Assembly: GCA_944548615.1 (NCBI GenBank)
Contig: OX155967.1
Location: 21,754,752 to 21,818,751, forward strand
Direction of reading: 5' to 3'
Origin: Micropterix aruncella
Lineage: Eukaryota; Arthropoda; Insecta; Lepidoptera; Micropterigidae
DNA length: 64,000 nt
The position numbers and the translations under genes were made by a program. The notes beneath the pieces were generated by a model. It was not told the origin of the DNA and did not search any database. It saw only the letters and a program-made list of their open reading frames with translations. This document shows positions 21,042-63,613 of the stretch, piece after piece (position 1 is the first letter of the stretch; each line of letters begins with the position of its first letter).

Positions 21042-21213
21042 TAGATATATGATATAGAAAATATTAAACTAATGCTATTTTAATTGAGATAACGATTTGC
21101 TGAAGGAAAATAGAAGTTTCCAATGGTGCTAACTCTTCCCTTTGCCTATGATTCATATGTTCGTGGTGGTCGTAAACAAAATAAAAATATGTTTAATTAT
21201 ATAAAAATCACTT

Positions 21214-21350
21214 ACTATTGTCGTGAAGGTAAAGCCGAATGGTTATACCATTTCCAGGTGGAAGAAAATTAATTCCATTTGCCATAGTAGTGCACGTACG
21301 CAGTAGGTCTCTAGTTTCTTCATATACCTCATCATCGAGGTGGAGTTTAA
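21214..21350 (-). pseudogene. Leftmost type-B exon copy, interrupted by a TTAA element
   Basis: The donor-side part of the exon is present, but a TTAA-targeted insertion splits it within its TTTAAAC sequence. The remaining few exon bases and the acceptor lie after 21656. This unit lies at the edge of the array and is the only copy with this insertion. Confidence 0.75.
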
Positions 21351-21656
21351 CCCCTTGAGTATGATACGACCAAATCTGGTTGTGAAACAATTATCCGTTG
21401 AGTATGATAAGACCAGATCTGGTTTTGCGTTTTTTTCACTTCTTTGACGTTCTCATATTTATTCATAATTATCTAATTGTTTTACAAAATGATATTTCAA
21501 TATTCTATATTCGAAATTTCAATGCAATCATTGTGCAGTTGTTCTTTTTATGATTGGTGTAGTAGTTTCGTAGTTATAGTACTTTAAGGTCGATGTCGCC
21601 GAAAATCCTGCAAAAGAGACAGATGCATCCATGAAAATACCCATTTACTCCAAGGG
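21351..21656. mobile_element. 306-bp TTAA-flanked MITE (piggyBac-like)
   Basis: TTAA at 21347-21350 and 21657-21660 flanks ends CCCCTTGAGTA and TACTCCAAGGG (inverted). The other array units lack it and have a single TTAA at this place, which confirms the ends precisely. Internally, TTGAGTATGATA.GACCA is repeated twice. Confidence 0.88.
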
Positions 21657-21826
21657 TTAAACGAACTAATAATGATAAATTTAAAAAATAAAATTGACAA
21701 AAAAGAGAATCCGAAACGACGTACAGTATTGTGCAAATTGTTGGAATCATAGGAAATTGTTATAGTAAAATCGTTTATTGCTTGTAAAATAATGGGCCCG
21801 ATTGAGTTTCTTTGTGAACTATAACT

Positions 21827-22067
21827 AAAATTGGTCCAAGCGAACGAGACAGAGCAATACGTTAGAGCGGAATATGAAACGGACGATCGTCGATAAATAC
21901 TACCTGCCGAACTTATATTCGTCCGAATAAATTCGAGCATATTTCGTGCGGTGTAAGATTCAGATGCTTTGACCTTGGCGGGCAATTTTATTGCAAAAAA
22001 GGGACAACCGGTCATCACACATTCCGCTTTAGCGTATTGCCCTGTCTCGTTCACACGGACTAATTTT
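21827..22067. mobile_element. MITE-like inverted-repeat segment of the 755-bp module (first of 17 copies)
   Basis: The left side (AAAATTGGTCC, GAACGAGACAGAGCAATACG, AGCGGAAT) and the right side (ATTCCGCTTTAGCGTATTG, CTGTCTCGTTC, GGACTAATTTT) are imperfect inverted repeats of about 46 bp. Identical segments recur in all later 755-bp modules. It probably inserted in the ancestral intron before amplification. The type-C intron jumps from GGTCC straight to TTGGTTATATAAAAATC, so this segment is absent there. The 92-codon frame across it is not convincing as a gene. Confidence 0.6.
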
Positions 22068-22278
22068 CGATTTTACTTCATGAAGAAACGCAATCGAGCT
22101 CAATATTTTTACAAAATTATGCAACTTATGCAACTTAATGCTATTTTAATTGAGATAACGATTTGCTGAAGGAAAATAGTTTCCAATGGTGCTAACTCTT
22201 CCCTTTGCCTATGATTCATATGTTCGTGGTGGTCGTAAACAAAATAAAAATATGTTTAATTATATAAAAATCACTTAC

Positions 22279-22418
22279 TATTGTCGTGAAGGTAAAGCCG
22301 AATGGTTATACCATTTCCAGGTGGAAGAAAATTAATTCCATTTGCCATAGTAGTGCACGTACGCAGTAGGTCTCTAGTTTCTTCATATACCTCATCATCG
22401 AGGTGGAGTTTAAACGAA
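22279..22418 (-). pseudogene. Type-B exon copy, HORMA-domain-like (representative of 18)
   Basis: On the minus strand a 140-bp segment is bounded by TTATTAG (acceptor) and GTAAGTG (donor). Its frame reads FKLHLDDEVYEETRDLLRTC and then TMANGINFLPPGNGITIRLY, LHDN. The pattern of LLR, M.N, LP and T.RLY..D resembles the C-terminal part of the HORMA domain core in HORMAD1/Hop1-type meiotic chromosome proteins. No other exon of such a gene is in the window, so each copy is an isolated exon fragment. The HORMA assignment rests on pattern recognition alone. Confidence 0.5.
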
Positions 22419-22615
22419 CTAATAATGATAAATTTAAAAAATAAAATTGACAAAAAAGAGAATCCGAAACGACGTACAGTATTGTGCAAATTGTTGGAAT
22501 CATAGGAAATTGTTATAGTAAAATCGTTTATTGCTTGTAAAATAATGGGCCCGATTGAGTTTCTTTGTGAACTATAACTAAAATTGGTCCAATTGGTTAT
22601 ATAAAAATCACTTAC

Positions 22616-22755
22616 TATTGTCGTGAAGGTAAAGCCGAATGGTTATACCATTTCCAGGTGGAAGAAAACCAATTCCATTTGCCATAGTAGTACAGGTACG
22701 CAGTAAGTCTCTAGTTTCTTCATATACCTCATCGTCGAGGTGGAGTTTAAACGAA
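22616..22755 (-). pseudogene. Type-C exon copy (representative of 21)
   Basis: Same boundaries and length as type B. Against type B it differs at four synonymous sites (GAT/GAC, CTA/TTA, ACG/ACC, TGC/TGT) and one codon with two changes (Asn to Gly, giving GIGFLPP). Splice signals are intact. It starts 337 bp after the preceding B exon, so B and C look like a former tandem exon duplication. Confidence 0.5.
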
Positions 22756-22901
22756 CTAATAATGATAAATATAAAAAATAAAATCGACAAAGTAAGTCGT
22801 ACGCAGTAAGTCTCTAGTTTCTTCATATACCTCATCGTCGAGGTGGAGTTTAAACGAACTAATAATGATAAATATAAAAAATAAAATCGACAAAAAAGAG
22901 A
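22696..22901. repeat. 103-bp tandem partial duplication inside the 440-bp module
   Basis: GTACGCAGTAAGTCTC starts at 22696 and again at 22799. The unit contains the acceptor-side part of the exon plus some intron. It recurs in every C module; in seven of them element 2 separates the two halves. Confidence 0.88.
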
Positions 22902-24244
22902 ATCCGAAACGAAGTACAGTATTGTGCAAATTATTGGAATCATAGGAAATTGTTATAGTAAAATCGTTTATTGCTTGTAAAATAATGGGGCGATTGAGTT
23001 TCTTTGTGAACTAAAAATAAAATTGGTCCAAGCGAACGAGACAGAGCAATACGTTAGAGAGGAATATGAAACGGACGATCGTCGATAAATACTACCTGCC
23101 GAACTTATATTCGTCCGAATAAATTCGAGCATATTTCGTGCGGTGTAAGATTCAGATGCTTTGACCTTGGCGGGCAATTTTAATGCGAAAAAGGGACAAC
23201 CGGTCATCACACATTCCGCTTTAGCGTATTGCCCTGTCTCGTTCACACGGACTAATTTTCGATTTTACTTCATGAAGAAACGCAATCGAGCTCAATATTT
23301 TTACAAAATTATGCAACTTATGCAACTTAATGCTATTTTAATTGAGATAACGATTTGCTGAAGGAAAATAGAAGTTTCCAATGGTGCTAACTCTTCCCTT
23401 TGCCTATGATTCATATGTTCGTGGTGGTCGTAAACAAAATAAAAATATGTTTAATTATATAAAAATCACTTACTATTGTCGTGAAGGTAAAGCCGAATGG
23501 TTATACCATTTCCAGGTGGAAGAAAATTAATTCCATTTGCCATAGTAGTGCACGTACGCAGTAGGTCTCTAGTTTCTTCATATACCTCATCATCGAGGTG
23601 GAGTTTAAACGAACTAATAATGATAAATTTAAAAAATAAAATTGACAAAAAAGAGAATCCGAAACGACGTACAGTATTGTGCAAATTGTTGGAATCATAG
23701 GAAATTGTTATAGTAAAATCGTTTATTGCTTGTAAAATAATGGGCCCGATTGAGTTTCTTTGTGAACTATAACTAAAATTGGTCCAATTGGTTATATAAA
23801 AATCACTTACTATTGTCGTGAAGGTAAAGCCGAATGGTTATACCATTTCCAGGTGGAAGAAAACCAATTCCATTTGCCATAGTAGTACAGGTACGCAGTA
23901 AGTCTCTAGTTTCTTCATATACCTCATCGTCGAGGTGGAGTTTAAACGAACTAATAATGCTAGGGTCGGCGGACCCAAACACATAAGTCAAAATGTCAAG
24001 ATTTTCAGGAAAGGAATAAAACGTCATATAAAAAAATTATGATGAGAATTTAATCAACATTTTAAGGGAAAACAAAGTTCACACTCACTATTAACTTGTA
24101 CTTACATATATTTAACATTTAAATTATAAGAACAGCTATTTTAATGACTTATGTGATAAGGGATACTAATGGATCTAAGACTTATGTTAATGAGAACCAG
24201 AACATGTTAAAGAAAGTTTGAATAAGATAAATATACATATTTTG

Positions 24245-26486
24245 TTACTCTTCTTCGCTATCAACTAAATCTGGATCGATATTGGGGATATTATATTTTG
24301 TAGGTAAATCTAAATAAAATTTATGAAACACATCAGGTATTAAAGTTAAAAGTGAAATTAAGTCATCTTTTTTTTCGTTAGATATTGGCAAAGGCAATTG
24401 TGATATAACTGCAATACTATCTGGTATGGTGCAACCTCGGCGTCTCAAATTTAGTGTGTCAAAATCTGGTTCTTTATCTAAGGAGTCTATGTATGATATC
24501 ACTCCAAATTTTTCTTCATACCGAAGCCACCGTTTATCCAACCACTTGAATGGTTTGCCTTTGTCATCTTTGTTTCTTAAAACTAAAGGCCCCTTTAGCA
24601 ATGACGAAAACTCCAGAAAGTCGGTGTTTTTCATTTCAATAACTTGAAATTTTTTACTACTGGATTTGATCAGTTGAATCCAGTCGTGAGGATGATAAAT
24701 CTGTAATTCAGTCTTCTTTTTTTTCTTTTCAATGATACCATGATCTGTATCCACTTCTAAATGACTATGACCTGGTACCATGAACTTGTGCTCAATAACT
24801 TCCAAGCTCAACTTCTGTAAGGCCCAGGTGAACATTGAGCTCACATGCGAATTTCTGTTCTGCCCTCCACAAGTGTCTGAGTAGAATATCACGCGTTTAG
24901 TGCCTGCAGGCAGATTCGTCCTGAGATGCATACACAGACATGAAGCGATTTGATTTGCTCCTCGAGCAGCTATTGTTTCATACCAGATATAGCACACTGC
25001 TTTCCCTGTCTTATTATCGTGGATAGTCAGATTAAATGTCCACAACTGGCGTTTGTAAAAAGCTACAGATGAGCTTAGTGCAGGAGTTGGTAGACATTGT
25101 TGTAAATCAAATGTGTACACTTGTACAGTATTGTCATTTTTATATTTTTCCGTGTCATCTTTCTTCTGTGAGTAAGCTTGATCAGCTGAAATTTTATGTA
25201 GGTCGTGTTGTGAAATAAGTTCAGTTTTTTTCTGTTCGTCCTGGGCGAGTTGAATTTGCATTTTAAACTTGTCACATGTATAGCATGTGTCCACACCTGG
25301 TTTTTTAAAGCATAATCCTAACTTGTGAAATTCCTGACTGTAAATTTTAATTGACGGCGGATTTGTGGAGTTTTCACAAAATAATTCGTACATTTTATTT
25401 ATGGTTAAATGGGACGGTAGATACTTTTTAGATGTTGTCTTCCTTGTGTAGTGACTTTCATAGGAAGGAAAAGATAATATGTGATTTCTAATGGCTTCTC
25501 TTTTTTCGTTCGGTATTTTGTGTTTTGGTACCCTCTTGCCACGCATATCATCCATTTGAGTACCACCAACTGAAGAACGTTTTTTCAACGCAACAGTTTT
25601 AATGAAATTGTCGCTTTCGTCTAATGTTTTTAATAAACATCCCCGGCAAACCGGTTCACGCTTGCCATGAATAACAAAAAAATATTTGTAAGTCATCAGG
25701 CGAAATTTTTGGCTTTCAGGATCATTGGTGCGTTGCCTTTGAGTAGCTTTTTCTTGGATTTCCATTAACGATGCCATGTACGAAGATCTTTTTTCATATG
25801 AGCCCATTTGCCAGTATTCCTCGAACAATGCTTCTCTGTCATTCAAACTTATTCGCTCCTTGCATTTCATGCGACATGAACCAAGTTCTTTTAACATTTT
25901 ACCGGCAATGGCCTTCCCTTTAAGGGTTTTGTATGATAATCCAGAATTCCTTTTAAGTTTCTTTTCCCTCTTTATAACCCGAATACTTTTCTTAGGTGAC
26001 TGGACTGGAGTGGCAATCGACGTTCCATTATTCGCCGATTCATCTTCTGAACTTGAAGAAAGACCTCGGTGGCTCGGTTGTTGGTATGGAGGATCTTGAA
26101 CAGAATCATCGCTTGAAAAATCTATGTCCATAGGCGGCATAAACCCTTCGGAAGAAACCCCTGTCGATGTTGATGGAATGGGTTCTTGATTCACTAACGA
26201 TTGGCTCGAAGTCAAGGGTTGGCTCGTTGGTTCTTCATTCGACTGACCTTTAACAAATTATAACTGTTCACATCTCACGAATACCGAGTACCTACTTTAT
26301 ACAATAATTCCAAAACTTAATTAAATAAATTAAAGAGCAGCTAAATTGAGTAGGTAGAAACTATACCTAAGTTGTGGAACTTAAGTTTCAAATCATTTTA
26401 AGTTAACTGTGGTGATACATACCTTCAATGTTGATGTCTCGTCTCAACGCCAAATCGACGAGTTTTTTTCCTCTGTATGAATCCAT
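24245..26486 (-). CDS. Element 2 transposase-like protein, two exons, 688 aa (copy 1)
   Basis: Exon 1 is 26423-26486 (ATG, MDSYRGKKLVDLALRRDINI) with donor GTATGT. The 175-bp intron ends TTAAAG, and exon 2 is 24245-26247. The frames join. In order: an acidic Ser-rich N terminus (to about 100), a basic KREKKLKR patch (about 114), a CxxxC/EEYWQMGSY segment (146-172), VCRGC (221-225), a DTCYTC knuckle (341-346), then a presumptive RNase H-like core with Asp402 (YTFDLQQ), Asp479 (FYSDTCGGQNRN) and Asp521/523 (HLEVDTDHGIIE), followed by a KKKKK run and an acidic tail (DSEEE). The motif order matches the element 1 protein and, as I know it, DUF7869-type insect proteins. Catalytic assignment is inferred. 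The gene is uninterrupted and could encode an active enzyme. Confidence 0.82.
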
Positions 26487-26871
26487 CGCAGCATTTATTT
26501 CTATACACAACACAATTCTTAGCACGTTACTTCACTTTGGGAATATCAGAACACTACTAACCTTTTTTTAATGTTACCCCAAACATTTCACTAGATTTCA
26601 ACGCAATAAATAACTTTCGAGCGTGCCACTCAAGTGCAAGGTAATAAATATTATTCTCAAGTGTCTACCCTCTAATCGTCAATCATTAGATAACATGATG
26701 CTCTAATCGTACCAAACAACTTAAGTCATAATACGCGAAACAAAAAATAACTCTTCAGCTGATCCTTTCCACATAAGTATAGTTAGGTTATTTATAACGT
26801 CGCATGTTTGAAAATAACGTAAAGGTTGATAGAGTACGCTACTTAGAATCAGAAATAACCCGATCTCCGTG

Positions 26872-26973
26872 ACTTATGTGCCTTAGTCGGTCGACGTATC
26901 GAAAAATATCTAGTTGTTAGGTGTAAGAAAAAAAAAACGCCTTTTTTTGACTTATGTGCTTTAGTCCGCCGAC
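26872..26973. repeat. Element 2 right subterminal direct repeat
   Basis: GACTTATGTGCCTTAGTCGG at 26872 and GACTTATGTGCTTTAGTCCG at 26949 are near-identical, 77 bp apart; the second forms the terminus. This suggests two transposase-binding sites at this end. Further ACTTATGT words lie near the left end (24147, 24180). Confidence 0.75.
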
Positions 26974-26978
26974 CCTAG

Positions 26979-29900
26979 AATGATAAATATAAAAAATAAA
27001 ATCGACAAAGTAAGTCGTACGCAGTAAGTCTCTAGTTTCTTCATATACCTCATCGTCGAGGTGGAGTTTAAACGAACTAATAATGATAAATATAAAAAAT
27101 AAAATCGACAAAAAAGAGAATCCGAAACGACGTACTGTATTGTGCAAATTATTGGAATCATAGGAAATTGTTATAGTAAAATCGTTTATTGCTTGTAAAA
27201 TAATGGGGCGATTGAGTTTCTTTGTGAACTAAAAATAAAATTGGTCCAAGCGAACGAGACAGAGCAATACGTTAGAGCGGAATATGAAACGGACGATCGT
27301 CGATAAATACTACCTGCCGAACTTATATTCGTCCGAATAAATTCGAGCATATTTCGTGCGGTGTAAGATTCAGATGCTTTGACCTTGGCGGGCAATTTTA
27401 ATGCGAAAAAGGGACAACCGGTCATCACACATTCCGCTTTAGCGTATTGCCCTGTCTCGTTCACACGGACTAATTTTCGATTTTACTTCATGAAGAAACG
27501 CAATCGAGCTCAATATTTTTACAAAATTATGCAACTTATGCAACTTAATGCTATTTTAATTGAGATAACGATTTGCTGAAGGAAAATAGAAGTTTCCAAT
27601 GGTGCTAACTCTTCCCTTTGCCTATGATTCATATGTTCGTGGTGGTCGTAAACAAAATAAAAATATGTTTAATTATATAAAAATCACTTACTATTGTCGT
27701 GAAGGTAAAGCCGAATGGTTATACCATTTCCAGGTGGAAGAAAATTAATTCCATTTGCCATAGTAGTGCACGTACGCAGTAGGTCTCTAGTTTCTTCATA
27801 TACCTCATCATCGAGGTGGAGTTTAAACGAACTAATAATGATAAATTTAAAAAATAAAATTGACAAAAAAGAGAATCCGAAACGACGTACAGTATTGTGC
27901 AAATTGTTGGAATCATAGGAAATTGTTATAGTAAAATCGTTTATTGCTTGTAAAATAATGGGCCCGATTGAGTTTCTTTGTGAACTATAACTAAAATTGG
28001 TCCAATTGGTTATATAAAAATCACTTACTATTGTCGTGAAGGTAAAGCCGAATGGTTATACCATTTCCAGGTGGAAGAAAACCAATTCCATTTGCCATAG
28101 TAGTACAGGTACGCAGTAAGTCTCTAGTTTCTTCATATACCTCATCGTCGAGGTGGAGTTTAAACGAACTAATAATGATAAATATAAAAAATAAAATCGA
28201 CAAAGTAAGTCGTACGCAGTAAGTCTCTAGTTTCTTCATATACCTCATCGTCGAGGTGGAGTTTAAACGAACTAATAATGATAAATATAAAAAATAAAAT
28301 CGACAAAAAAGAGAATCCGAAACGACGTACAGTATTGTGCAAATTATTGGAATCATAGGAAATTGTTATAGTAAAATCGTTTATTGCTTGTAAAATAATG
28401 GGGCGATTGAGTTTCTTTGTGAACTAAAAATAAAATTGGTCCAAGCGAACGAGACAGAGCAATACGTTAGAGAGGAATATGAAACGGACGATCGTCGATA
28501 AATACTACCTGCCGAACTTATATTCGTCCGAATAAATTCGAGCATATTTCGTGCGGTGTAAGATTCAGATGCTTTGACCTTGGCGGGCAATTTTAATGCG
28601 AAAAAGGGACAACCGGTCATCACACATTCCGCTTTAGCGTATTGCCCTGTCTCGTTCACACGGACTAATTTTCGATTTTACTTCATGAAGAAACGCAATC
28701 GAGCTCAATATTTTTACAAAATTATGCAACTTATGCAACTTAATGCTATTTTAATTGAGATAACGATTTGCTGAAGGAAAATAGAAGTTTCCAATGGTGC
28801 TAACTCTTCCCTTTGCCTATGATTCATATGTTCGTGGTGGTCGTAAACAAAATAAAAATATGTTTAATTATATAAAAATCACTTACTATTGTCGTGAAGG
28901 TAAAGCCGAATGGTTATACCATTTCCAGGTGGAAGAAAATTAATTCCATTTGCCATAGTAGTGCACGTACGCAGTAGGTCTCTAGTTTCTTCATATACCT
29001 CATCATCGAGGTGGAGTTTAAACGAACTAATAATGATAAATTTAAAAAATAAAATTGACAAAAAAGAGAATCCGAAACGACGTACAGTATTGTGCAAATT
29101 GTTGGAATCATAGGAAATTGTTATAGTAAAATCGTTTATTGCTTGTAAAATAATGGGCCCGATTGAGTTTCTTTGTGAACTATAACTAAAATTGGTCCAA
29201 TTGGTTATATAAAAATCACTTACTATTGTCGTGAAGGTAAAGCCGAATGGTTATACCATTTCCAGGTGGAAGAAAACCAATTCCATTTGCCATAGTAGTA
29301 CAGGTACGCAGTAAGTCTCTAGTTTCTTCATATACCTCATCGTCGAGGTGGAGTTTAAACGAACTAATAATGATAAATATAAAAAATAAAATCGACAAAG
29401 TAAGTCGTACGCAGTAAGTCTCTAGTTTCTTCATATACCTCATCGTCGAGGTGGAGTTTAAACGAACTAATAATGATAAATATAAAAAATAAAATCGACA
29501 AAAAAGAGAATCCGAAACGACGTACAGTATTGTGCAAATTATTGGAATCATAGGAAATTGTTATAGTAAAATCGTTTATTGCTTGTAAAATAATGGGGCG
29601 ATTGAGTTTCTTTGTGAACTAAAAATAAAATTGGTCGAAGCGAACGAGACAGAGCAATACGTTAGAGAGGAATATGAAACGGACGATCGTCGATAAATAC
29701 TACCTGCCGAACTTATATTCGTCCGAATAAATTGGAGCATATTTCGTGCGGTGTAAGATTCAGATGCTTTGACCTTGGCGGGCAATTTTAATGCGAAAAA
29801 GGGACAACCGGTCATCACACATTCCGCTTTAGCGTATTGCCCTGTCTCGTTCACACGGACTAATTTTCGATTTTACTTCATGAAGAAACGCAATCGAGCT

Positions 29901-30567
29901 CAATATTTTTACAAAATTATGCAACTTATGCAACTTAATGCTATTTTAATTGAGATAACGATTTGCTGAAGGAAAATAGAAGTTTCCAATGGTGCTAACT
30001 CTTCCCTTTGCCTATGATTCATATGTTCGTGGTGGTCGTAAACAAAATAAAAATATGTTTAATTATATAAAAATCACTTACTATTGTCGTGAAGGTAAAG
30101 CCGAATGGTTATACCATTTCCAGGTGGAAGAAAATTAATTCCATTTGCCATAGTAGTGCACGTACGCAGTAGGTCTCTAGTTTCTTCATATACCTCATCA
30201 TCGAGGTGGAGTTTAAACGAACTAATAATGATAAATTTAAAAAATAAAATTGACAAAAAAGAGAATCCGAAACGACGTACAGTATTGTGCAAATTGTTGG
30301 AATCATAGGAAATTGTTATAGTAAAATCGTTTATTGCTTGTAAAATAATGGGCCCGATTGAGTTTCTTTGTGAACTATAACTAAAATTGGTCCAATTGGT
30401 TATATAAAAATCACTTACTATTGTCGTGAAGGTAAAGCCGAATGGTTATACCATTTCCAGGTGGAAGAAAACCAATTCCATTTGCCATAGTAGTACAGGT
30501 ACGCAGTAAGTCTCTAGTTTCTTCATATACCTCATCGTCGAGGTGGAGTTTAAACGAACTAATAATG
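26979..30567. repeat. Array interval X (three 1195-bp units)
   Basis: The MITE-like segment variants are a1, a2, a3 in order. After the transposon, TACTGTATT replaces the usual TACAGTATT (about 27133), a mark shared only with the interval at 40635. Confidence 0.9.
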
Positions 30568-33500
30568 CTAGGGTCGGCGGACCCAAACACATAAGTCAAA
30601 ATGTCAAGATTTTCAGGAAAGGAATAAAACGTCATATAAAAAAATTATGATGAGAATTTAATCAACATTTTAAGGGAAAACAAAGTTCACACTCACTATT
30701 AACTTGTACTTACATATATTTAACATTTAAATTATAAGAACAGCTATTTTAATGACTTATGTGATAAGGGATACTAATGGATCTAAGACTTATGTTAATG
30801 AGAACCAGAACATGTTAAAGAAAGTTTGAATAAGATAAATATACATATTTTGTTACTCTTCTTCGCTATCAACTAAATCTGGATCGATATTGGGGATATT
30901 ATATTTTGTAGGTAAATCTAAATAAAATTTATGAAACACATCAGGTATTAAAGTTAAAAGTGAAATTAAGTCATCTTTTTTTTCGTTAGATATTGGCAAA
31001 GGCAATTGTGATATAACTGCAATACTATCTGGTATGGTGCAACCTCGGCGTCTCAAATTTAGTGTGTCAAAATCTGGTTCTTTATCTAAGGAGTCTATGT
31101 ATGATATCACTCCAAATTTTTCTTCATACCGAAGCCACCGTTTATCCAACCACTTGAATGGTTTGCCTTTGTCATCTTTGTTTCTTAAAACTAAAGGCCC
31201 CTTTAGCAATGACGAAAACTCCAGAAAGTCGGTGTTTTTCATTTCAATAACTTGAAATTTTTTACTACTGGATTTGATCAGTTGAATCCAGTCGTGAGGA
31301 TGATAAATCTGTAATTCAGTCTTCTTTTTTTTCTTTTCAATGATACCATGATCTGTATCCACTTCTAAATGACTATGACCTGGTACCATGAACTTGTGCT
31401 CAATAACTTCCAAGCTCAACTTCTGTAAGGCCCAGGTGAACATTGAGCTCACATGCGAATTTCTGTTCTGCCCTCCACAAGTGTCTGAGTAGAATATCAC
31501 GCGTTTAGTGCCTGCAGGCAGATTCGTCCTGAGATGCATACACAGACATGAAGCGATTTGATTTGCTCCTCGAGCAGCTATTGTTTCATACCAGATATAG
31601 CACACTGCTTTCCCTGTCTTATTATCGTGGATAGTCAGATTAAATGTCCACAACTGGCGTTTGTAAAAAGCTACAGATGAGCTTAGTGCAGGAGTTGGTA
31701 GACATTGTTGTAAATCAAATGTGTACACTTGTACAGTATTGTCATTTTTATATTTTTCCGTGTCATCTTTCTTCTGTGAGTAAGCTTGATCAGCTGAAAT
31801 TTTATGTAGGTCGTGTTGTGAAATAAGTTCAGTTTTTTTCTGTTCGTCCTGGGCGAGTTGAATTTGCATTTTAAACTTGTCACATGTATAGCATGTGTCC
31901 ACACCTGGTTTTTTAAAGCATAATCCTAACTTGTGAAATTCCTGACTGTAAATTTTAATTGACGGCGGATTTGTGGAGTTTTCACAAAATAATTCGTACA
32001 TTTTATTTATGGTTAAATGGGACGGTAGATACTTTTTAGATGTTGTCTTCCTTGTGTAGTGACTTTCATAGGAAGGAAAAGATAATATGTGATTTCTAAT
32101 GGCTTCTCTTTTTTCGTTCGGTATTTTGTGTTTTGGTACCCTCTTGCCACGCATATCATCCATTTGAGTACCACCAACTGAAGAACGTTTTTTCAACGCA
32201 ACAGTTTTAATGAAATTGTCGCTTTCGTCTAATGTTTTTAATAAACATCCCCGGCAAACCGGTTCACGCTTGCCATGAATAACAAAAAAATATTTGTAAG
32301 TCATCAGGCGAAATTTTTGGCTTTCAGGATCATTGGTGCGTTGCCTTTGAGTAGCTTTTTCTTGGATTTCCATTAACGATGCCATGTACGAAGATCTTTT
32401 TTCATATGAGCCCATTTGCCAGTATTCCTCGAACAATGCTTCTCTGTCATTCAAACTTATTCGCTCCTTGCATTTCATGCGACATGAACCAAGTTCTTTT
32501 AACATTTTACCGGCAATGGCCTTCCCTTTAAGGGTTTTGTATGATAATCCAGAATTCCTTTTAAGTTTCTTTTCCCTCTTTATAACCCGAATACTTTTCT
32601 TAGGTGACTGGACTGGAGTGGCAATCGACGTTCCATTATTCGCCGATTCATCTTCTGAACTTGAAGAAAGACCTCGGTGGCTCGGTTGTTGGTATGGAGG
32701 ATCTTGAACAGAATCATCGCTTGAAAAATCTATGTCCATAGGCGGCATAAACCCTTCGGAAGAAACCCCTGTCGATGTTGATGGAATGGGTTCTTGATTC
32801 ACTAACGATTGGCTCGAAGTCAAGGGTTGGCTCGTTGGTTCTTCATTCGACTGACCTTTAACAAATTATAACTGTTCACATCTCACGAATACCGAGTACC
32901 TACTTTATACAATAATTCCAAAACTTAATTAAATAAATTAAAGAGCAGCTAAATTGAGTAGGTAGAAACTATACCTAAGTTGTGGAACTTAAGTTTCAAA
33001 TCATTTTAAGTTAACTGTGGTGATACATACCTTCAATGTTGATGTCTCGTCTCAACGCCAAATCGACGAGTTTTTTTCCTCTGTATGAATCCATCGCAGC
33101 ATTTATTTCTATACACAACACAATTCTTAGCACGTTACTTCACTTTGGGAATATCAGAACACTACTAACCTTTTTTTAATGTTACCCCAAACATTTCACT
33201 AGATTTCAACGCAATAAATAACTTTCGAGCGTGCCACTCAAGTGCAAGGTAATAAATATTATTCTCAAGTGTCTACCCTCTAATCGTCAATCATTAGATA
33301 ACATGATGCTCTAATCGTACCAAACAACTTAAGTCATAATACGCGAAACAAAAAATAACTCTTCAGCTGATCCTTTCCACATAAGTATAGTTAGGTTATT
33401 TATAACGTCGCATGTTTGAAAATAACGTAAAGGTTGATAGAGTACGCTACTTAGAATCAGAAATAACCCGATCTCCGTGACTTATGTGCCTTAGTCGGTC

Positions 33501-33586
33501 GACGTATCGAAAAATATCTAGTTGTTAGGTGTAAGAAAAAAAAAACGCCTTTTTTTGACTTATGTGCTTTAGTCCGCCGACCCTAG
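30568..33586. mobile_element. Element 2, copy 2
   Basis: Same length, ends and AATG duplication as copy 1. Confidence 0.93.
30853..33094 (-). CDS. Element 2 transposase-like protein (copy 2)
   Basis: Exons 33031-33094 and 30853-32855. The predicted protein is identical to that of copy 1. Confidence 0.82.
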
Positions 33587-40600: not shown

Positions 40601-40634
40601 TTTTGACTTATGTGCTTTAGTCCGCCGACCCTAG
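37616..40634. mobile_element. Element 2, copy 3
   Basis: Full-length, identical ends and duplication. Confidence 0.93.
37901..40142 (-). CDS. Element 2 transposase-like protein (copy 3)
   Basis: Exons 40079-40142 and 37901-39903, protein identical to copy 1. Confidence 0.82.
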
Positions 40635-46000: not shown

Positions 46001-46047
46001 AAAAAACGCCTTTTTTTGACTTATGTGCTTTAGTCCGCCGACCCTAG
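43029..46047. mobile_element. Element 2, copy 4
   Basis: Full-length, identical ends and duplication. Confidence 0.93.
43314..45555 (-). CDS. Element 2 transposase-like protein (copy 4)
   Basis: Exons 45492-45555 and 43314-45316, protein identical to copy 1. Confidence 0.82.
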
Positions 46048-49000: not shown

Positions 49001-50076
49001 AAATCGACAAAAAAGAGAATCCGAAACGACGTACAGTATTGTGCAAATTATTGGAATCATAGGAAATTGTTATAGTAAAATCGTTTATTGCTTGTAAAAT
49101 AATGGGGCGATTGAGTTTCTTTGTGAACTAAAAATAAAATTGGTCGAAGCGAACGAGACAGAGCAATACGTTAGAGAGGAATATGAAACGGACGATCGTC
49201 GATAAATACTACCTGCCGAACTTATATTCGTCCGAATAAATTGGAGCATATTTCGTGCGGTGTAAGATTCAGATGCTTTGACCTTGGCGGGCAATTTTAA
49301 TGCGAAAAAGGGACAACCGGTCATCACACATTCCGCTTTAGCGTATTGCCCTGTCTCGTTCACACGGACTAATTTTCGATTTTACTTCATGAAGAAACGC
49401 AATCGAGCTCAATATTTTTACAAAATTATGCAACTTATGCAACTTAATGCTATTTTAATTGAGATAACGATTTGCTGAAGGAAAATAGAAGTTTCCAATG
49501 GTGCTAACTCTTCCCTTTGCCTATGATTCATATGTTCGTGGTGGTCGTAAACAAAATAAAAATATGTTTAATTATATAAAAATCACTTACTATTGTCGTG
49601 AAGGTAAAGCCGAATGGTTATACCATTTCCAGGTGGAAGAAAATTAATTCCATTTGCCATAGTAGTGCACGTACGCAGTAGGTCTCTAGTTTCTTCATAT
49701 ACCTCATCATCGAGGTGGAGTTTAAACGAACTAATAATGATAAATTTAAAAAATAAAATTGACAAAAAAGAGAATCCGAAACGACGTACAGTATTGTGCA
49801 AATTGTTGGAATCATAGGAAATTGTTATAGTAAAATCGTTTATTGCTTGTAAAATAATGGGCCCGATTGAGTTTCTTTGTGAACTATAACTAAAATTGGT
49901 CCAATTGGTTATATAAAAATCACTTACTATTGTCGTGAAGGTAAAGCCGAATGGTTATACCATTTCCAGGTGGAAGAAAACCAATTCCATTTGCCATAGT
50001 AGTACAGGTACGCAGTAAGTCTCTAGTTTCTTCATATACCTCATCGTCGAGGTGGAGTTTAAACGAACTAATAATG
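46048..50076. repeat. Array interval Y, second occurrence
   Basis: Same length, module order and marks as the interval at 33587. Confidence 0.9.
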
Positions 50077-53000
50077 CTAGGGTCGGCGGACCCAAACACA
50101 TAAGTCAAAATGTCAAGATTTTCAGGAAAGGAATAAAACGTCATATAAAAAAATTATGATGAGAATTTAATCAACATTTTAAGGGAAAACAAAGTTCACA
50201 CTCACTATTAACTTGTACTTACATATATTTAACATTTAAATTATAAGAACAGCTATTTTAATGACTTATGTGATAAGGGATACTAATGGATCTAAGACTT
50301 ATGTTAATGAGAACCAGAACATGTTAAAGAAAGTTTGAATAAGATAAATATACATATTTTGTTACTCTTCTTCGCTATCAACTAAATCTGGATCGATATT
50401 GGGGATATTATATTTTGTAGGTAAATCTAAATAAAATTTATGAAACACATCAGGTATTAAAGTTAAAAGTGAAATTAAGTCATCTTTTTTTTCGTTAGAT
50501 ATTGGCAAAGGCAATTGTGATATAACTGCAATACTATCTGGTATGGTGCAACCTCGGCGTCTCAAATTTAGTGTGTCAAAATCTGGTTCTTTATCTAAGG
50601 AGTCTATGTATGATATCACTCCAAATTTTTCTTCATACCGAAGCCACCGTTTATCCAACCACTTGAATGGTTTGCCTTTGTCATCTTTGTTTCTTAAAAC
50701 TAAAGGCCCCTTTAGCAATGACGAAAACTCCAGAAAGTCGGTGTTTTTCATTTCAATAACTTGAAATTTTTTACTACTGGATTTGATCAGTTGAATCCAG
50801 TCGTGAGGATGATAAATCTGTAATTCAGTCTTCTTTTTTTTCTTTTCAATGATACCATGATCTGTATCCACTTCTAAATGACTATGACCTGGTACCATGA
50901 ACTTGTGCTCAATAACTTCCAAGCTCAACTTCTGTAAGGCCCAGGTGAACATTGAGCTCACATGCGAATTTCTGTTCTGCCCTCCACAAGTGTCTGAGTA
51001 GAATATCACGCGTTTAGTGCCTGCAGGCAGATTCGTCCTGAGATGCATACACAGACATGAAGCGATTTGATTTGCTCCTCGAGCAGCTATTGTTTCATAC
51101 CAGATATAGCACACTGCTTTCCCTGTCTTATTATCGTGGATAGTCAGATTAAATGTCCACAACTGGCGTTTGTAAAAAGCTACAGATGAGCTTAGTGCAG
51201 GAGTTGGTAGACATTGTTGTAAATCAAATGTGTACACTTGTACAGTATTGTCATTTTTATATTTTTCCGTGTCATCTTTCTTCTGTGAGTAAGCTTGATC
51301 AGCTGAAATTTTATGTAGGTCGTGTTGTGAAATAAGTTCAGTTTTTTTCTGTTCGTCCTGGGCGAGTTGAATTTGCATTTTAAACTTGTCACATGTATAG
51401 CATGTGTCCACACCTGGTTTTTTAAAGCATAATCCTAACTTGTGAAATTCCTGACTGTAAATTTTAATTGACGGCGGATTTGTGGAGTTTTCACAAAATA
51501 ATTCGTACATTTTATTTATGGTTAAATGGGACGGTAGATACTTTTTAGATGTTGTCTTCCTTGTGTAGTGACTTTCATAGGAAGGAAAAGATAATATGTG
51601 ATTTCTAATGGCTTCTCTTTTTTCGTTCGGTATTTTGTGTTTTGGTACCCTCTTGCCACGCATATCATCCATTTGAGTACCACCAACTGAAGAACGTTTT
51701 TTCAACGCAACAGTTTTAATGAAATTGTCGCTTTCGTCTAATGTTTTTAATAAACATCCCCGGCAAACCGGTTCACGCTTGCCATGAATAACAAAAAAAT
51801 ATTTGTAAGTCATCAGGCGAAATTTTTGGCTTTCAGGATCATTGGTGCGTTGCCTTTGAGTAGCTTTTTCTTGGATTTCCATTAACGATGCCATGTACGA
51901 AGATCTTTTTTCATATGAGCCCATTTGCCAGTATTCCTCGAACAATGCTTCTCTGTCATTCAAACTTATTCGCTCCTTGCATTTCATGCGACATGAACCA
52001 AGTTCTTTTAACATTTTACCGGCAATGGCCTTCCCTTTAAGGGTTTTGTATGATAATCCAGAATTCCTTTTAAGTTTCTTTTCCCTCTTTATAACCCGAA
52101 TACTTTTCTTAGGTGACTGGACTGGAGTGGCAATCGACGTTCCATTATTCGCCGATTCATCTTCTGAACTTGAAGAAAGACCTCGGTGGCTCGGTTGTTG
52201 GTATGGAGGATCTTGAACAGAATCATCGCTTGAAAAATCTATGTCCATAGGCGGCATAAACCCTTCGGAAGAAACCCCTGTCGATGTTGATGGAATGGGT
52301 TCTTGATTCACTAACGATTGGCTCGAAGTCAAGGGTTGGCTCGTTGGTTCTTCATTCGACTGACCTTTAACAAATTATAACTGTTCACATCTCACGAATA
52401 CCGAGTACCTACTTTATACAATAATTCCAAAACTTAATTAAATAAATTAAAGAGCAGCTAAATTGAGTAGGTAGAAACTATACCTAAGTTGTGGAACTTA
52501 AGTTTCAAATCATTTTAAGTTAACTGTGGTGATACATACCTTCAATGTTGATGTCTCGTCTCAACGCCAAATCGACGAGTTTTTTTCCTCTGTATGAATC
52601 CATCGCAGCATTTATTTCTATACACAACACAATTCTTAGCACGTTACTTCACTTTGGGAATATCAGAACACTACTAACCTTTTTTTAATGTTACCCCAAA
52701 CATTTCACTAGATTTCAACGCAATAAATAACTTTCGAGCGTGCCACTCAAGTGCAAGGTAATAAATATTATTCTCAAGTGTCTACCCTCTAATCGTCAAT
52801 CATTAGATAACATGATGCTCTAATCGTACCAAACAACTTAAGTCATAATACGCGAAACAAAAAATAACTCTTCAGCTGATCCTTTCCACATAAGTATAGT
52901 TAGGTTATTTATAACGTCGCATGTTTGAAAATAACGTAAAGGTTGATAGAGTACGCTACTTAGAATCAGAAATAACCCGATCTCCGTGAATTATGTGCCT

Positions 53001-53095
53001 TAGTCGGTCGACGTATCGAAAAATATCTAGTTGTTAGGTGTAAGAAAAAAAAAACGCCTTTTTTTGACTTATGTGCTTTAGTCCGCCGACCCTAG
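50077..53095. mobile_element. Element 2, copy 5
   Basis: Full-length. It carries a C-to-A change at 52990 (GTGAATTATG for GTGACTTATG), in the inner subterminal repeat, shared only with copy 6. Confidence 0.93.
50362..52603 (-). CDS. Element 2 transposase-like protein (copy 5)
   Basis: Exons 52540-52603 and 50362-52364, protein identical to copy 1. Confidence 0.82.
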
Positions 53096-55929: not shown

Positions 55930-58900
55930 CTAGGGTCGGCGGACCCAAACACATAAGTCAAAATGTCAAGATTTTCAGGAAAGGAATAAAACGTCATATA
56001 AAAAAATTATGATGAGAATTTAATCAACATTTTAAGGGAAAACAAAGTTCACACTCACTATTAACTTGTACTTACATATATTTAACATTTAAATTATAAG
56101 AACAGCTATTTTAATGACTTATGTGATAAGGGATACTAATGGATCTAAGACTTATGTTAATGAGAACCAGAACATGTTAAAGAAAGTTTGAATAAGATAA
56201 ATATACATATTTTGTTACTCTTCTTCGCTATCAACTAAATCTGGATCGATATTGGGGATATTATATTTTGTAGGTAAATCTAAATAAAATTTATGAAACA
56301 CATCAGGTATTAAAGTTAAAAGTGAAATTAAGTCATCTTTTTTTTCGTTAGATATTGGCAAAGGCAATTGTGATATAACTGCAATACTATCTGGTATGGT
56401 GCAACCTCGGCGTCTCAAATTTAGTGTGTCAAAATCTGGTTCTTTATCTAAGGAGTCTATGTATGATATCACTCCAAATTTTTCTTCATACCGAAGCCAC
56501 CGTTTATCCAACCACTTGAATGGTTTGCCTTTGTCATCTTTGTTTCTTAAAACTAAAGGCCCCTTTAGCAATGACGAAAACTCCAGAAAGTCGGTGTTTT
56601 TCATTTCAATAACTTGAAATTTTTTACTACTGGATTTGATCAGTTGAATCCAGTCGTGAGGATGATAAATCTGTAATTCAGTCTTCTTTTTTTTCTTTTC
56701 AATGATACCATGATCTGTATCCACTTCTAAATGACTATGACCTGGTACCATGAACTTGTGCTCAATAACTTCCAAGCTCAACTTCTGTAAGGCCCAGGTG
56801 AACATTGAGCTCACATGCGAATTTCTGTTCTGCCCTCCACAAGTGTCTGAGTAGAATATCACGCGTTTAGTGCCTGCAGGCAGATTCGTCCTGAGATGCA
56901 TACACAGACATGAAGCGATTTGATTTGCTCCTCGAGCAGCTATTGTTTCATACCAGATATAGCACACTGCTTTCCCTGTCTTATTATCGTGGATAGTCAG
57001 ATTAAATGTCCACAACTGGCGTTTGTAAAAAGCTACAGATGAGCTTAGTGCAGGAGTTGGTAGACATTGTTGTAAATCAAATGTGTACACTTGTACAGTA
57101 TTGTCATTTTTATATTTTTCCGTGTCATCTTTCTTCTGTGAGTAAGCTTGATCAGCTGAAATTTTATGTAGGTCGTGTTGTGAAATAAGTTCAGTTTTTT
57201 TCTGTTCGTCCTGGGCGAGTTGAATTTGCATTTTAAACTTGTCACATGTATAGCATGTGTCCACACCTGGTTTTTTAAAGCATAATCCTAACTTGTGAAA
57301 TTCCTGACTGTAAATTTTAATTGACGGCGGATTTGTGGAGTTTTCACAAAATAATTCGTACATTTTATTTATGGTTAAATGGGACGGTAGATACTTTTTA
57401 GATGTTGTCTTCCTTGTGTAGTGACTTTCATAGGAAGGAAAAGATAATATGTGATTTCTAATGGCTTCTCTTTTTTCGTTCGGTATTTTGTGTTTTGGTA
57501 CCCTCTTGCCACGCATATCATCCATTTGAGTACCACCAACTGAAGAACGTTTTTTCAACGCAACAGTTTTAATGAAATTGTCGCTTTCGTCTAATGTTTT
57601 TAATAAACATCCCCGGCAAACCGGTTCACGCTTGCCATGAATAACAAAAAAATATTTGTAAGTCATCAGGCGAAATTTTTGGCTTTCAGGATCATTGGTG
57701 CGTTGCCTTTGAGTAGCTTTTTCTTGGATTTCCATTAACGATGCCATGTACGAAGATCTTTTTTCATATGAGCCCATTTGCCAGTATTCCTCGAACAATG
57801 CTTCTCTGTCATTCAAACTTATTCGCTCCTTGCATTTCATGCGACATGAACCAAGTTCTTTTAACATTTTACCGGCAATGGCCTTCCCTTTAAGGGTTTT
57901 GTATGATAATCCAGAATTCCTTTTAAGTTTCTTTTCCCTCTTTATAACCCGAATACTTTTCTTAGGTGACTGGACTGGAGTGGCAATCGACGTTCCATTA
58001 TTCGCCGATTCATCTTCTGAACTTGAAGAAAGACCTCGGTGGCTCGGTTGTTGGTATGGAGGATCTTGAACAGAATCATCGCTTGAAAAATCTATGTCCA
58101 TAGGCGGCATAAACCCTTCGGAAGAAACCCCTGTCGATGTTGATGGAATGGGTTCTTGATTCACTAACGATTGGCTCGAAGTCAAGGGTTGGCTCGTTGG
58201 TTCTTCATTCGACTGACCTTTAACAAATTATAACTGTTCACATCTCACGAATACCGAGTACCTACTTTATACAATAATTCCAAAACTTAATTAAATAAAT
58301 TAAAGAGCAGCTAAATTGAGTAGGTAGAAACTATACCTAAGTTGTGGAACTTAAGTTTCAAATCATTTTAAGTTAACTGTGGTGATACATACCTTCAATG
58401 TTGATGTCTCGTCTCAACGCCAAATCGACGAGTTTTTTTCCTCTGTATGAATCCATCGCAGCATTTATTTCTATACACAACACAATTCTTAGCACGTTAC
58501 TTCACTTTGGGAATATCAGAACACTACTAACCTTTTTTTAATGTTACCCCAAACATTTCACTAGATTTCAACGCAATAAATAACTTTCGAGCGTGCCACT
58601 CAAGTGCAAGGTAATAAATATTATTCTCAAGTGTCTACCCTCTAATCGTCAATCATTAGATAACATGATGCTCTAATCGTACCAAACAACTTAAGTCATA
58701 ATACGCGAAACAAAAAATAACTCTTCAGCTGATCCTTTCCACATAAGTATAGTTAGGTTATTTATAACGTCGCATGTTTGAAAATAACGTAAAGGTTGAT
58801 AGAGTACGCTACTTAGAATCAGAAATAACCCGATCTCCGTGAATTATGTGCCTTAGTCGGTCGACGTATCGAAAAATATCTAGTTGTTAGGTGTAAGAAA

Positions 58901-58948
58901 AAAAAAACGCCTTTTTTTGACTTATGTGCTTTAGTCCGCCGACCCTAG
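55930..58948. mobile_element. Element 2, copy 6
   Basis: Full-length, with the A variant at 58843 that links it to copy 5. Confidence 0.93.
56215..58456 (-). CDS. Element 2 transposase-like protein (copy 6)
   Basis: Exons 58393-58456 and 56215-58217, protein identical to copy 1. Confidence 0.82.
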
Positions 58949-61782
58949 AATGATAAATATAAAAAATAAAATCGACAAAGTAAGTCGTACGCAGTAAGTC
59001 TCTAGTTTCTTCATATACCTCATCGTCGAGGTGGAGTTTAAACGAACTAATAATGATAAATATAAAAAATAAAATCGACAAAAAAGAGAATCCGAAACGA
59101 CGTACAGTATTGTGCAAATTATTGGAATCATAGGAAATTGTTATAGTAAAATCGTTTATTGCTTGTAAAATAATGGGGCGATTGAGTTTCTTTGTGAACT
59201 AAAAATAAAATTGGTCCAAGCGAACGAGACAGAGCAATACGTTAGAGCGGAATATGAAACGGACGATCGTCGATAAATACTACCTGCCGAACTTATATTC
59301 GTCCGAATAAATTCGAGCATATTTCGTGCGGTGTAAGATTCAGATGCTTTGACCTTGGCGGGCAATTTTAATGCGAAAAAGGGACAACCGGTCATCACAC
59401 ATTCCGCTTTAGCGTATTGCCCTGTCTCGTTCACACGGACTAATTTTCGATTTTACTTCATGAAGAAACGCAATCGAGCTCAATATTTTTACAAAATTAT
59501 GCAACTTATGCAACTTAATGCTATTTTAATTGAGATAACGATTTGCTGAAGGAAAATAGAAGTTTCCAATGGTGCTAACTCTTCCCTTTGCCTATGATTC
59601 ATATGTTCGTGGTGGTCATAAACAAAATAAAAATATGTTTAATTATATAAAAATCACTTACTATTGTCGTGAAGGTAAAGCCGAATGGTTATACCATTTC
59701 CAGGTGGAAGAAAATTAATTCCATTTGCCATAGTAGTGCACGTACGCAGTAGGTCTCTAGTTTCTTCATATACCTCATCATCGAGGTGGAGTTTAAACGA
59801 ACTAATAATGATAAATTTAAAAAATAAAATTGACAAAAAAGAGAATCCGAAACGACGTACAGTATTGTGCAAATTGTTGGAATCATAGGAAATTGTTATA
59901 GTAAAATCGTTTATTGCTTGTAAAATAATGGGCCCGATTGAGTTTCTTTGTGAACTATAACTAAAATTGGTCCAATTGGTTATATAAAAATCACTTACTA
60001 TTGTCGTGAAGGTAAAGCCGAATGGTTATACCATTTCCAGGTGGAAGAAAACCAATTCCATTTGCCATAGTAGTACAGGTACGCAGTAAGTCTCTAGTTT
60101 CTTCATATACCTCATCGTCGAGGTGGAGTTTAAACGAACTAATAATGATAAATATAAAAAATAAAATCGACAAAGTAAGTCGTACGCAGTAAGTCTCTAG
60201 TTTCTTCATATACCTCATCGTCGAGGTGGAGTTTAAACGAACTAATAATGATAAATATAAAAAATAAAATCGACAAAAAAGAGAATCCGAAACGACGTAC
60301 AGTATTGTGCAAATTGTTGGAATCATAGGAAATTGTTATAGTAAAATCGTTTATTGCTTGTAAAATAATGGGCCCGATTGAGTTTCTTTGTGAACTATAA
60401 CTAAAATTGGTCCAATTGGTTATATAAAAATCACTTACTATTGTCGTGAAGGTAAAGCCGAATGGTTATACCATTTCCAGGTGGAAGAAAACCAATTCCA
60501 TTTGCCATAGTAGTACAGGTACGCAGTAAGTCTCTAGTTTCTTCATATACCTCATCGTCGAGGTGGAGTTTAAACGAACTAATAATGATAAATATAAAAA
60601 ATAAAATCGACAAAGTAAGTCGTACGCAGTAAGTCTCTAGTTTCTTCATATACCTCATCGTCGAGGTGGAGTTTAAACGAACTAATAATGATAAATATAA
60701 AAAATAAAATCGACAAAAAAGAGAATCCGAAACGACGTACAGTATTGTGCAAATTATTGGAATCATAGGAAATTGTTATAGTAAAATCGTTTATTGCTTG
60801 TAAAATAATGGGGCGATTGAGTTTCTTTGTGAACTAAAAATAAAATTGGTCCAAGCGAACGAGACAGAGCAATACGTTAGAGCGGAATATGAAACGGACG
60901 ATCGTCGATAAATACTACCTGCCGAACTTATATTCGTCCGAATAAATTCGAGCATATTTCGTGCGGTGTAAGATTCAGATGCTTTGACCTTGGCGGGCAA
61001 TTTTAATGCGAAAAAGGGACAACCGGTCATCACACATTCCGCTTTAGCGTATTGCCCTGTCTCGTTCACACGGACTAATTTTCGATTTTACTTCATGAAG
61101 AAACGCAATCGAGCTCAATATTTTTACAAAATTATGCAACTTATGCAACTTAATGCTATTTTAATTGAGATAACGATTTGCTGAAGGAAAATAGAAGTTT
61201 CCAATGGTGCTAACTCTTCCCTTTGCCTATGATTCATATGTTCGTGGTGGTCGTAAACAAAATAAAAATATGTTTAATTATATAAAAATCACTTACTATT
61301 GTCGTGAAGGTAAAGCCGAATGGTTATACCATTTCCAGGTGGAAGAAAATTAATTCCATTTGCCATAGTAGTGCACGTACGCAGTAGGTCTCTAGTTTCT
61401 TCATATACCTCATCATCGAGGTGGAGTTTAAACGAACTAATAATGATAAATTTAAAAAATAAAATTGACAAAAAAGAGAATCCGAAACGACGTACAGTAT
61501 TGTGCAAATTGTTGGAATCATAGGAAATTGTTATAGTAAAATCGTTTATTGCTTGTAAAATAATGGGCCCGATTGAGTTTCTTTGTGAACTATAACTAAA
61601 ATTGGTCCAATTGGTTATATAAAAATCACTTACTATTGTCGTGAAGGTAAAGCCGAATGGTTATACCATTTCCAGGTGGAAGAAAACCAATTCCATTTGC
61701 CATAGTAGTACAGGTACGCAGTAAGTCTCTAGTTTCTTCATATACCTCATCGTCGAGGTGGAGTTTAAACGAACTAATAATG
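58949..61782. repeat. Array interval Y', second occurrence
   Basis: Same length and marks as the interval at 53096, so the last two higher-order units (5853 bp each) look like the newest duplication. Confidence 0.9.
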
Positions 61783-63613
61783 CTAGGGTCGGCGGACCCA
61801 AACACATAAGTCAAAATGTCAAGATTTTCAGGAAAGGAATAAAACGTCATATAAAAAAATTATGATGAGAATTTAATCAACATTTTAAGGGAAAACAAAG
61901 TTCACACTCACTATTAACTTGTACTTACATATATTTAACATTTAAATTATAAGAACAGCTATTTTAATGACTTATGTGATAAGGGATACTAATGGATCTA
62001 AGACTTATGTTAATGAGAACCAGAACATGTTAAAGAAAGTTTGAATAAGATAAATATACATATTTTGTTACTCTTCTTCGCTATCAACTAAATCTGGATC
62101 GATATTGGGGATATTATATTTTGTAGGTAAATCTAAATAAAATTTATGAAACACATCAGGTATTAAAGTTAAAAGTGAAATTAAGTCATCTTTTTTTTCG
62201 TTAGATATTGGCAAAGGCAATTGTGATATAACTGCAATACTATCTGGTATGGTGCAACCTCGGCGTCTCAAATTTAGTGTGTCAAAATCTGGTTCTTTAT
62301 CTAAGGAGTCTATGTATGATATCACTCCAAATTTTTCTTCATACCGAAGCCACCGTTTATCCAACCACTTGAATGGTTTGCCTTTGTCATCTTTGTTTCT
62401 TAAAACTAAAGGCCCCTTTAGCAATGACGAAAACTCCAGAAAGTCGGTGTTTTTCATTTCAATAACTTGAAATTTTTTACTACTGGATTTGATCAGTTGA
62501 ATCCAGTCGTGAGGATGATAAATCTGTAATTCAGTCTTCTTTTTTTTCTTTTCAATGATACCATGATCTGTATCCACTTCTAAATGACTATGACCTGGTA
62601 CCATGAACTTGTGCTCAATAACTTCCAAGCTCAACTTCTGTAAGGCCCAGGTGAACATTGAGCTCACATGCGAATTTCTGTTCTGCCCTCCACAAGTGTC
62701 TGAGTAGAATATCACGCGTTTAGTGCCTGCAGGCAGATTCGTCCTGAGATGCATACACAGACATGAAGCGATTTGATTTGCTCCTCGAGCAGCTATTGTT
62801 TCATACCAGATATAGCACACTGCTTTCCCTGTCTTATTATCGTGGATAGTCAGATTAAATGTCCACAACTGGCGTTTGTAAAAAGCTACAGATGAGCTTA
62901 GTGCAGGAGTTGGTAGACATTGTTGTAAATCAAATGTGTACACTTGTACAGTATTGTCATTTTTATATTTTTCCGTGTCATCTTTCTTCTGTGAGTAAGC
63001 TTGATCAGCTGAAATTTTATGTAGGTCGTGTTGTGAAATAAGTTCAGTTTTTTTCTGTTCGTCCTGGGCGAGTTGAATTTGCATTTTAAACTTGTCACAT
63101 GTATAGCATGTGTCCACACCTGGTTTTTTAAAGCATAATCCTAACTTGTGAAATTCCTGACTGTAAATTTTAATTGACGGCGGATTTGTGGAGTTTTCAC
63201 AAAATAATTCGTACATTTTATTTATGGTTAAATGGGACGGTAGATACTTTTTAGATGTTGTCTTCCTTGTGTAGTGACTTTCATAGGAAGGAAAAGATAA
63301 TATGTGATTTCTAATGGCTTCTCTTTTTTCGTTCGGTATTTTGTGTTTTGGTACCCTCTTGCCACGCATATCATCCATTTGAGTACCACCAACTGAAGAA
63401 CGTTTTTTCAACGCAACAGTTTTAATGAAATTGTCGCTTTCGTCTAATGTTTTTAATAAACATCCCCGGCAAACCGGTTCACGCTTGCCATGAATAACAA
63501 AAAAATATTTGTAAGTCATCAGGCGAAATTTTTGGCTTTCAGGATCATTGGTGCGTTGCCTTTGAGTAGCTTTTTCTTGGATTTCCATTAACGATGCCAT
63601 GTACGAAGATCTT
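61783..63613. mobile_element. Element 2, copy 7, truncated
   Basis: The left end and AATG are intact, but similarity stops at GTACGAAGATCTT (63613). The right 1,188 bp, including the right inverted repeat and exon 1, are missing. Confidence 0.92.
62068..63613 (-). pseudogene. Element 2 transposase-like gene, 5'-truncated (copy 7)
   Basis: It lacks exon 1 and the first part of exon 2, about 174 residues of the full protein. The remaining frame is open from an internal Met (63600) for 510 codons and keeps the knuckle and all candidate catalytic residues. Without its start and right end it should not be mobile by itself. Confidence 0.8.

Follow-up and report, generated by a model that had tools for sequence, protein, structure and literature searches.

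The window analysed here is a stretch of 64,000 nucleotides from the lepidopteran Micropterix aruncella (assembly GCA_944548615.1, contig OX155967.1, here C24, positions 21,754,752 to 21,818,751), which contains a tandem array built from a fragment of a HORMAD1-like meiosis gene and, in many of its units, a DNA transposon of 3019 bp. Very probably this gene-fragment array received a single insertion of the transposon and was then amplified by the copying of blocks of several monomers, with the element as a passenger.

The array occupies positions 21071-63613 of the forward strand (42.5 kb) and comprises 18 monomers, m1 to m18, all head-to-tail, as delimited by a landmark map and by monomer lengths. 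The monomers are of 755-type, 755+440, 755+2x440 and 1195+3023 composition, the 440-bp module being a repeat of part of the 755-bp unit with an internal 103-bp tandem duplication. Their lengths are 1066 bp (m1), 1192 bp (m2), 1195 bp (n=5), 1635 bp (n=4) and 4218 bp (n=6), and m18 is cut at 63613, where the right edge of the array falls inside the seventh transposon copy and is followed by sequence that is single in the window. Monomer m1 is without the 440 module and bears a separate 306-bp insertion flanked by TTAA, which by its look we take to be a piggyBac-like miniature inverted-repeat transposable element; by eye, related sequence is also found about 2.4 kb into the right flank (~2440-2560 of L039). 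Genome-wide searches covered 1.08 Gb in 742 contigs, including the window. An exact 26-mer typical of the 440 module gave 41 matches and another typical of the 755 unit gave 18, and every one of these lies inside the array. As far as exact words tell, the repeat appears to be confined to this one array; the preliminary description of this DNA was right to see a tandem array, but the term 'satellite', which stands for abundant DNA in long arrays and mostly at many loci, is too strong for one 42.5-kb locus.

Transposon copies are carried by 7 of the 18 monomers (m3, m6, m9, m11, m14, m16, and m18). All seven sit at the same base of a 440 module, in the same orientation and with AATG before the start, and AATG also follows the end of all six complete copies; starts, flanks, and alignments confirm what had been noted at first. 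The start-to-start spacings are 6608, 7048, 5413, 7048, 5853, and 5853 bp, and arithmetic on the positions resolves these, in the same order, into 3023 plus 3x755+3x440, 3x755+4x440, 2x755+2x440, 3x755+4x440, 2x755+3x440, and 2x755+3x440. The spacings are thus whole numbers of modules plus 3023, as had been claimed; this figure includes one AATG, and the element itself measures 3019 bp. The inverted ends of the element agree at 31 of 34 positions and are identical over the outermost 15 bp. Four of the six complete copies are identical, and the fifth and sixth, located in the neighbouring transposon-bearing units m14 and m16, have one common substitution (C2914A); copy 7 matches the others exactly over its 1831 bp. 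There are 59 homologous insertion sites in the array, of which 7 are filled and 52 are empty (34 with identical downstream sequence and 18 with a one-base variant). The empty sites show that AATG was the original target.

Table 1. Features of the array and its transposon copies, in window coordinates
Feature	Position	Strand	Basis
m1, 755-type without 440 module, with 306-bp insertion	21071..22136	+	landmark map, monomer lengths
306-bp insertion in m1, TTAA on both sides, short inverted ends	21351..21656	.	sequence
m2, 1192 bp (1195-type minus 3 bp), transposon-free	22137..23328	+	monomer lengths
133-bp HORMA-domain exon copy in m2, with GT donor, sense on minus strand	22279..22411	-	
103-bp tandem duplication (1.9 copies) within 440 module	22696..22894	+	
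m3, 4218 bp = 755+440+3023, first unit with transposon	23329..27546	+	
Copy 1 (m3), 3019 bp, AATG both sides	23960..26978	-	
Transposase exon 2 of copy 1, stop included	24245..26247	-	
Putative 175-bp transposase intron of copy 1	26248-26422	-	
Transposase exon 1 of copy 1, putative	26423..26486	-	
Copy 2 (m6), identical to copy 1	30568..33586	-	
m7, example of 1635-bp monomer (755 + 2x440); likewise m12, m15, m17	34155..35789	+	
Copy 3 (m9), identical to copy 1	37616..40634	-	
Copy 4 (m11), identical to copy 1	43029..46047	-	
Copy 5 (m14), one substitution at element position 2914	50077..53095	-	
Copy 6 (m16), substitution as in copy 5	55930..58948	-	
Copy 7 (m18), first 1831 bp, array edge	61783..63613	-	

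The element entered the array once. Its array copies differ from the consensus of dispersed copies at element positions 530, 556, and 1338, and the changes, which are common to the array copies, affect three of the 688 encoded residues (608, 599, and 339). The array alleles at these positions occur in none of 34 dispersed copies, 24 of which were aligned in full and the remaining 10 examined only at the three sites, and a 31-mer with the array alleles at 530 and 556 has seven exact matches in the genome, which are the seven array copies. No sign of descent from the array was seen in any dispersed copy examined. Private alleles that are common to the array copies and absent from the 34 dispersed copies indicate one insertion followed by amplification; along with the proportion of filled sites (7/59) and the haplotypes shared between monomers (see below), they uphold the proposal first made of a single insertion and repeated segmental amplification.

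The wider family was delineated by a DNA search of the genome, which found six array copies and at least 34 dispersed copies, nearly full length and located on many contigs; 40 of 61 candidates were scored, making 34 a lower bound that is biased to the least diverged copies. The 24 dispersed copies aligned in full form a star, with 0-3 changes each from the consensus (38 in total, ~1.6 per copy). Both ends are present in 23 of them, all with identical 4-bp target duplications of the AWWT type (15 ATAT, 4 AATT, 3 AAAT, and 1 ATTT), and the other has one eroded end and no duplication. Full 688-residue proteins are encoded by 22 of the 24, with early stops in two. An independent copy with an ATAT duplication and without the array alleles lies ~34 kb to the left of the array (L030, C24:21738417-21741435). 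Allowing for the preference of the search for the least diverged copies, the family looks like one that has undergone a recent genome-wide burst.

The six full-length array copies appear to encode a two-exon, 688-amino-acid transposase of the DDE type, and the earlier count of six apparently intact transposase genes plus one truncated copy is supported at the level of sequence. The only Pfam match of the protein is DUF7869, of which no mention was found in the open-licence papers searched. The transposase fits a DDE/D, RNase H-like fold. A Foldseek comparison with the PDB produced no match at E<=0.001, and VIA-align re-aligned Foldseek's own candidates. The transposase of Sola2 elements is also of the DDE type. 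Transposase may be made from the array, and the mechanism proposed below does not require it. Elsewhere in the window (10057-12651) there is a second, diverged DUF7869 transposase-like gene with 30% identity to the array transposase, and upstream of it a long frame whose DNA includes a 93-bp tandem repeat.

The sequence comparisons trace the monomer to one 133-bp exon and its introns from a HORMAD1-like family. On the minus strand, the modules show a 133-bp exon with an open frame and, after it, GTAAGT; whole or partial copies of this exon recur from module to module. The preliminary description's 'exon fragments' represent this one exon or its parts with flanking intron. Sequence libraries alone had failed to settle the identity of the exon. 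Its peptide matched Pfam HORMA at E 0.16 (profile 131-170), with two of nine shuffles reaching ~0.2 with other families; another variant of the peptide had no hit, the exon peptide had no match in the PDB, and a padded query returned no candidate from the protein database. The matter was settled by the genome's own HORMA loci. A genome-wide search for the HORMA family gave 31 matches, of which those above the cut-off lie at 11 places (some may be haplotigs), and the genome holds about ten HORMAD1-like loci; none of the matches was on C24, where the array's own exon went unlisted, so this silence says little on weak matches there. Corresponding exons matched the exon peptide at all six of the HORMA places fetched (37-46% identity), and E-values against the 16 loci compared range from 1e-6 to 1e-9. 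The intron-exon-intron DNA is collinear with two HORMA loci (77.6% and 76.7% over 331 bp). On their own the matching genomic exons are below the Pfam cut-off (E 0.8-3.8, profile ~123-183), but they lie beside exons that are above it, and the first exon of the C19 HORMA locus has a PDB match to HORMAD1 (8j69, E 1.1e-6). Relative to four of the six HORMA loci fetched, the array is 65-68% identical in exon DNA, 89-92% in the downstream intron, and 70-78% in the upstream stretch.

The HORMAD1-like genes are themselves multi-copy (L051-L056 on C19, C14, C37, C1, and C38); in the part of the source that concerns it, the silkworm is described with one HOP1 (PMC10151401). Between paralogues, the HORMA exon tends to diverge more than the downstream intron, with 105/118 vs 145/145 for L053-L054 (Fisher p 2e-5) and 125/133 vs 134/136 (p 0.058) and 110/118 vs 135/137 (p 0.048) for other pairs, and dN exceeds dS in all three HORMAD paralogue pairs, though the changes are few. 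Two points speak against diversifying selection: constraint or conversion may act on the downstream intron, and in the array exon the silent sites have diverged as much as the rest (dN > dS in 2/3).

The way in which the array grew is recorded in its haplotypes. Once the element and the extra 440 modules are removed, m3-m17 have five variable positions that form five haplotypes, each present in 2-4 monomers, and no singleton change is found in these 15 monomers (37,823 bp). Along the array the haplotypes read Ta B C Td D C Ta B Td D C Td' D Td' D, followed by the cut unit, and transposon-bearing and transposon-free monomers recur in shared haplotypes. This repeated order shows that blocks of several monomers were copied after the insertion. 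In Heliconius, the mutation rate is 2.9e-9 per site per generation; by the rule of three, this rate would place the last copying roughly within ~27,000 generations, if the assembly is right and differences have not been erased by gene conversion.

A course of events can be proposed from these observations. A piece of a HORMAD1-like gene, consisting of the 133-bp exon, introns, and an intronic inverted-repeat element, would first have become a 755-bp tandem repeat, to which internal duplications would have added the 440-bp module. There followed a single insertion, into one monomer, of a cut-and-paste transposon of the recently bursting family, which landed at an AATG of the 440 module. Unequal exchange or replication slippage between neighbouring monomers would later have copied multi-monomer blocks with the element as passenger, so that six copies are complete and a seventh is truncated where the array ends. 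The data show the single insertion, the shared alleles, the block structure, the HORMAD origin and the dispersed family; unequal exchange is the copying process that we infer, and the number of copies at the array would now follow the dynamics of the array and not transposition.

Several observations weigh against this scheme. The AATG at the array insertion does not conform to AWWT, the target pattern of the dispersed copies, and no HORMAD stretch aligned comes closer than ~92% identity for the flanking intron or 68% for the exon, with no founding copy among those aligned. The copy number of the array also depends on the assembly, and the absence of singletons means either that amplification was very recent or that the assembler repeated a path. 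An assembly artefact of this kind, in which one or a few transposon-bearing units were repeated and the true array is shorter, would explain both the 15 inner monomers without a singleton change and the exact repetition of blocks, but it is improbable. The array is not a simple loop, as five haplotypes occur in it, its monomers have three lengths once the element is discounted, the C2914A variant is internal to it, and its edge units (m1, m2, and m18) are distinct; the variants need at least two units, both flanks are single in the window and lie within a 32.4-Mb contig, and a mis-join of dispersed copies is opposed by the array-specific alleles that these copies lack.

Amplification could also have been driven by transposase activity, through breaks at element ends or the use of the ends of neighbouring copies, since six copies have intact ends and transposase frames and copies in direct orientation at distances of 5.4-7 kb could behave as composite elements. 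This is quite unlikely, as 755/440 modules and 1635-bp units multiplied without the element, and the exact 26-mers of both module types, being confined to the array, leave no undiverged composite product retained in the assembly.

A functional reading is suggested by the Su(Ste) repeats of Drosophila melanogaster, which, in the portions of the source that deal with them, are gene-derived tandem repeats on the Y with hoppel/1360, a defective element that drives antisense RNA (PMC7874207). The Micropterix array might likewise be a silencing locus, amplified under selection, that makes small RNAs against HORMAD relatives and/or an active transposon; gene-derived repeats with a DNA transposon in many units, about ten HORMAD-like loci, and a recently active-looking transposon family are all consistent with this. 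Yet exon and transposase are both on the minus strand, such that transcription running on from the element would give HORMAD sense and not antisense RNA, and an exon only 65-68% identical to the four paralogues aligned would be poor for small-RNA targeting, which makes such a locus very unlikely. A related and similarly doubtful proposal is that the array may be a living trap or reservoir, with six coding copies whose number is set by array recombination and which might be transcribed along with the HORMAD exon to give small RNAs; these would silence the transposon and perhaps also HORMAD relatives that evolve fast, which would make the array an independent counterpart of Su(Ste). Independent insertions into the same site of several monomers are hardly credible, for although the family inserts at short AT-rich targets, of which the array offers 59 equivalent ones, all seven copies occupy one module site in one orientation with 52 equivalent sites empty, AATG is off the family's AWWT preference, the three array-only alleles are common to the copies, and the 31-mer search found no founder with the 530 and 556 alleles elsewhere.

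The remainder of the window includes a YqaJ-like recombinase fragment near its left end (147-392, E 7e-8), a pure (AT)86 run (1095-1266), and two 483-bp tandem copies with 99% matches (13169-14134).

The array provides a clean, datable case in which transposon copies have been multiplied by array recombination and not by transposition, two routes that can be distinguished because private alleles separate them. In a family with such arrays, counts of copies and estimates of age are biased, and several potential transposase sources come to lie at one locus. With a young family and a younger array, this locus is suited to asking how fast arrays absorb and multiply an insertion and whether the host silences it.

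In the parts of the literature available for comparison, several systems share features with the array. Sola2-type elements have 4-bp AWWT target duplications (PMC3627910), and the dispersed copies resemble them in this, in their short inverted ends, and in a DDE-type transposase, unlike the array copy, which sits at AATG; by these features the family is a candidate for Sola2. The conversion of whole or partial transposable elements into satellites is known (PMC12628747), and satellite DNA from transposon sequence is exemplified by Tetris (PMC4079207). As in Tetris, transposon sequence has become part of a repeat unit, but the array element is an intact insertion in a pre-existing gene-derived unit and not the source of that unit. 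Tandem hobo, with up to 16 copies formed by the same element inserting into one site (McGurk and Barbash, 2018, as described in PMC12628747), likewise places a DNA transposon family in many tandem copies, whereas the array copies are at least 2.4 kb apart with gene-derived repeat between them and moved as passengers. The rarity first claimed for an autonomous-looking transposon within a monomer is tempered by close precedents in Su(Ste)/hoppel and tandem hobo, although for an intact, recently active cut-and-paste element multiplied as the passenger of a gene-derived array no precedent was found in the open-licence papers searched. With Su(Ste) the array shares gene-derived tandem repeats that carry the same DNA-transposon insertion, but here the element is full length and coding, lies on the sense strand of the exon, and is present in 7 of 18 units. 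Transposons inside arrays and tandemised transposons are therefore already known; the more unusual point is that an intact element from a recently bursting family was amplified.

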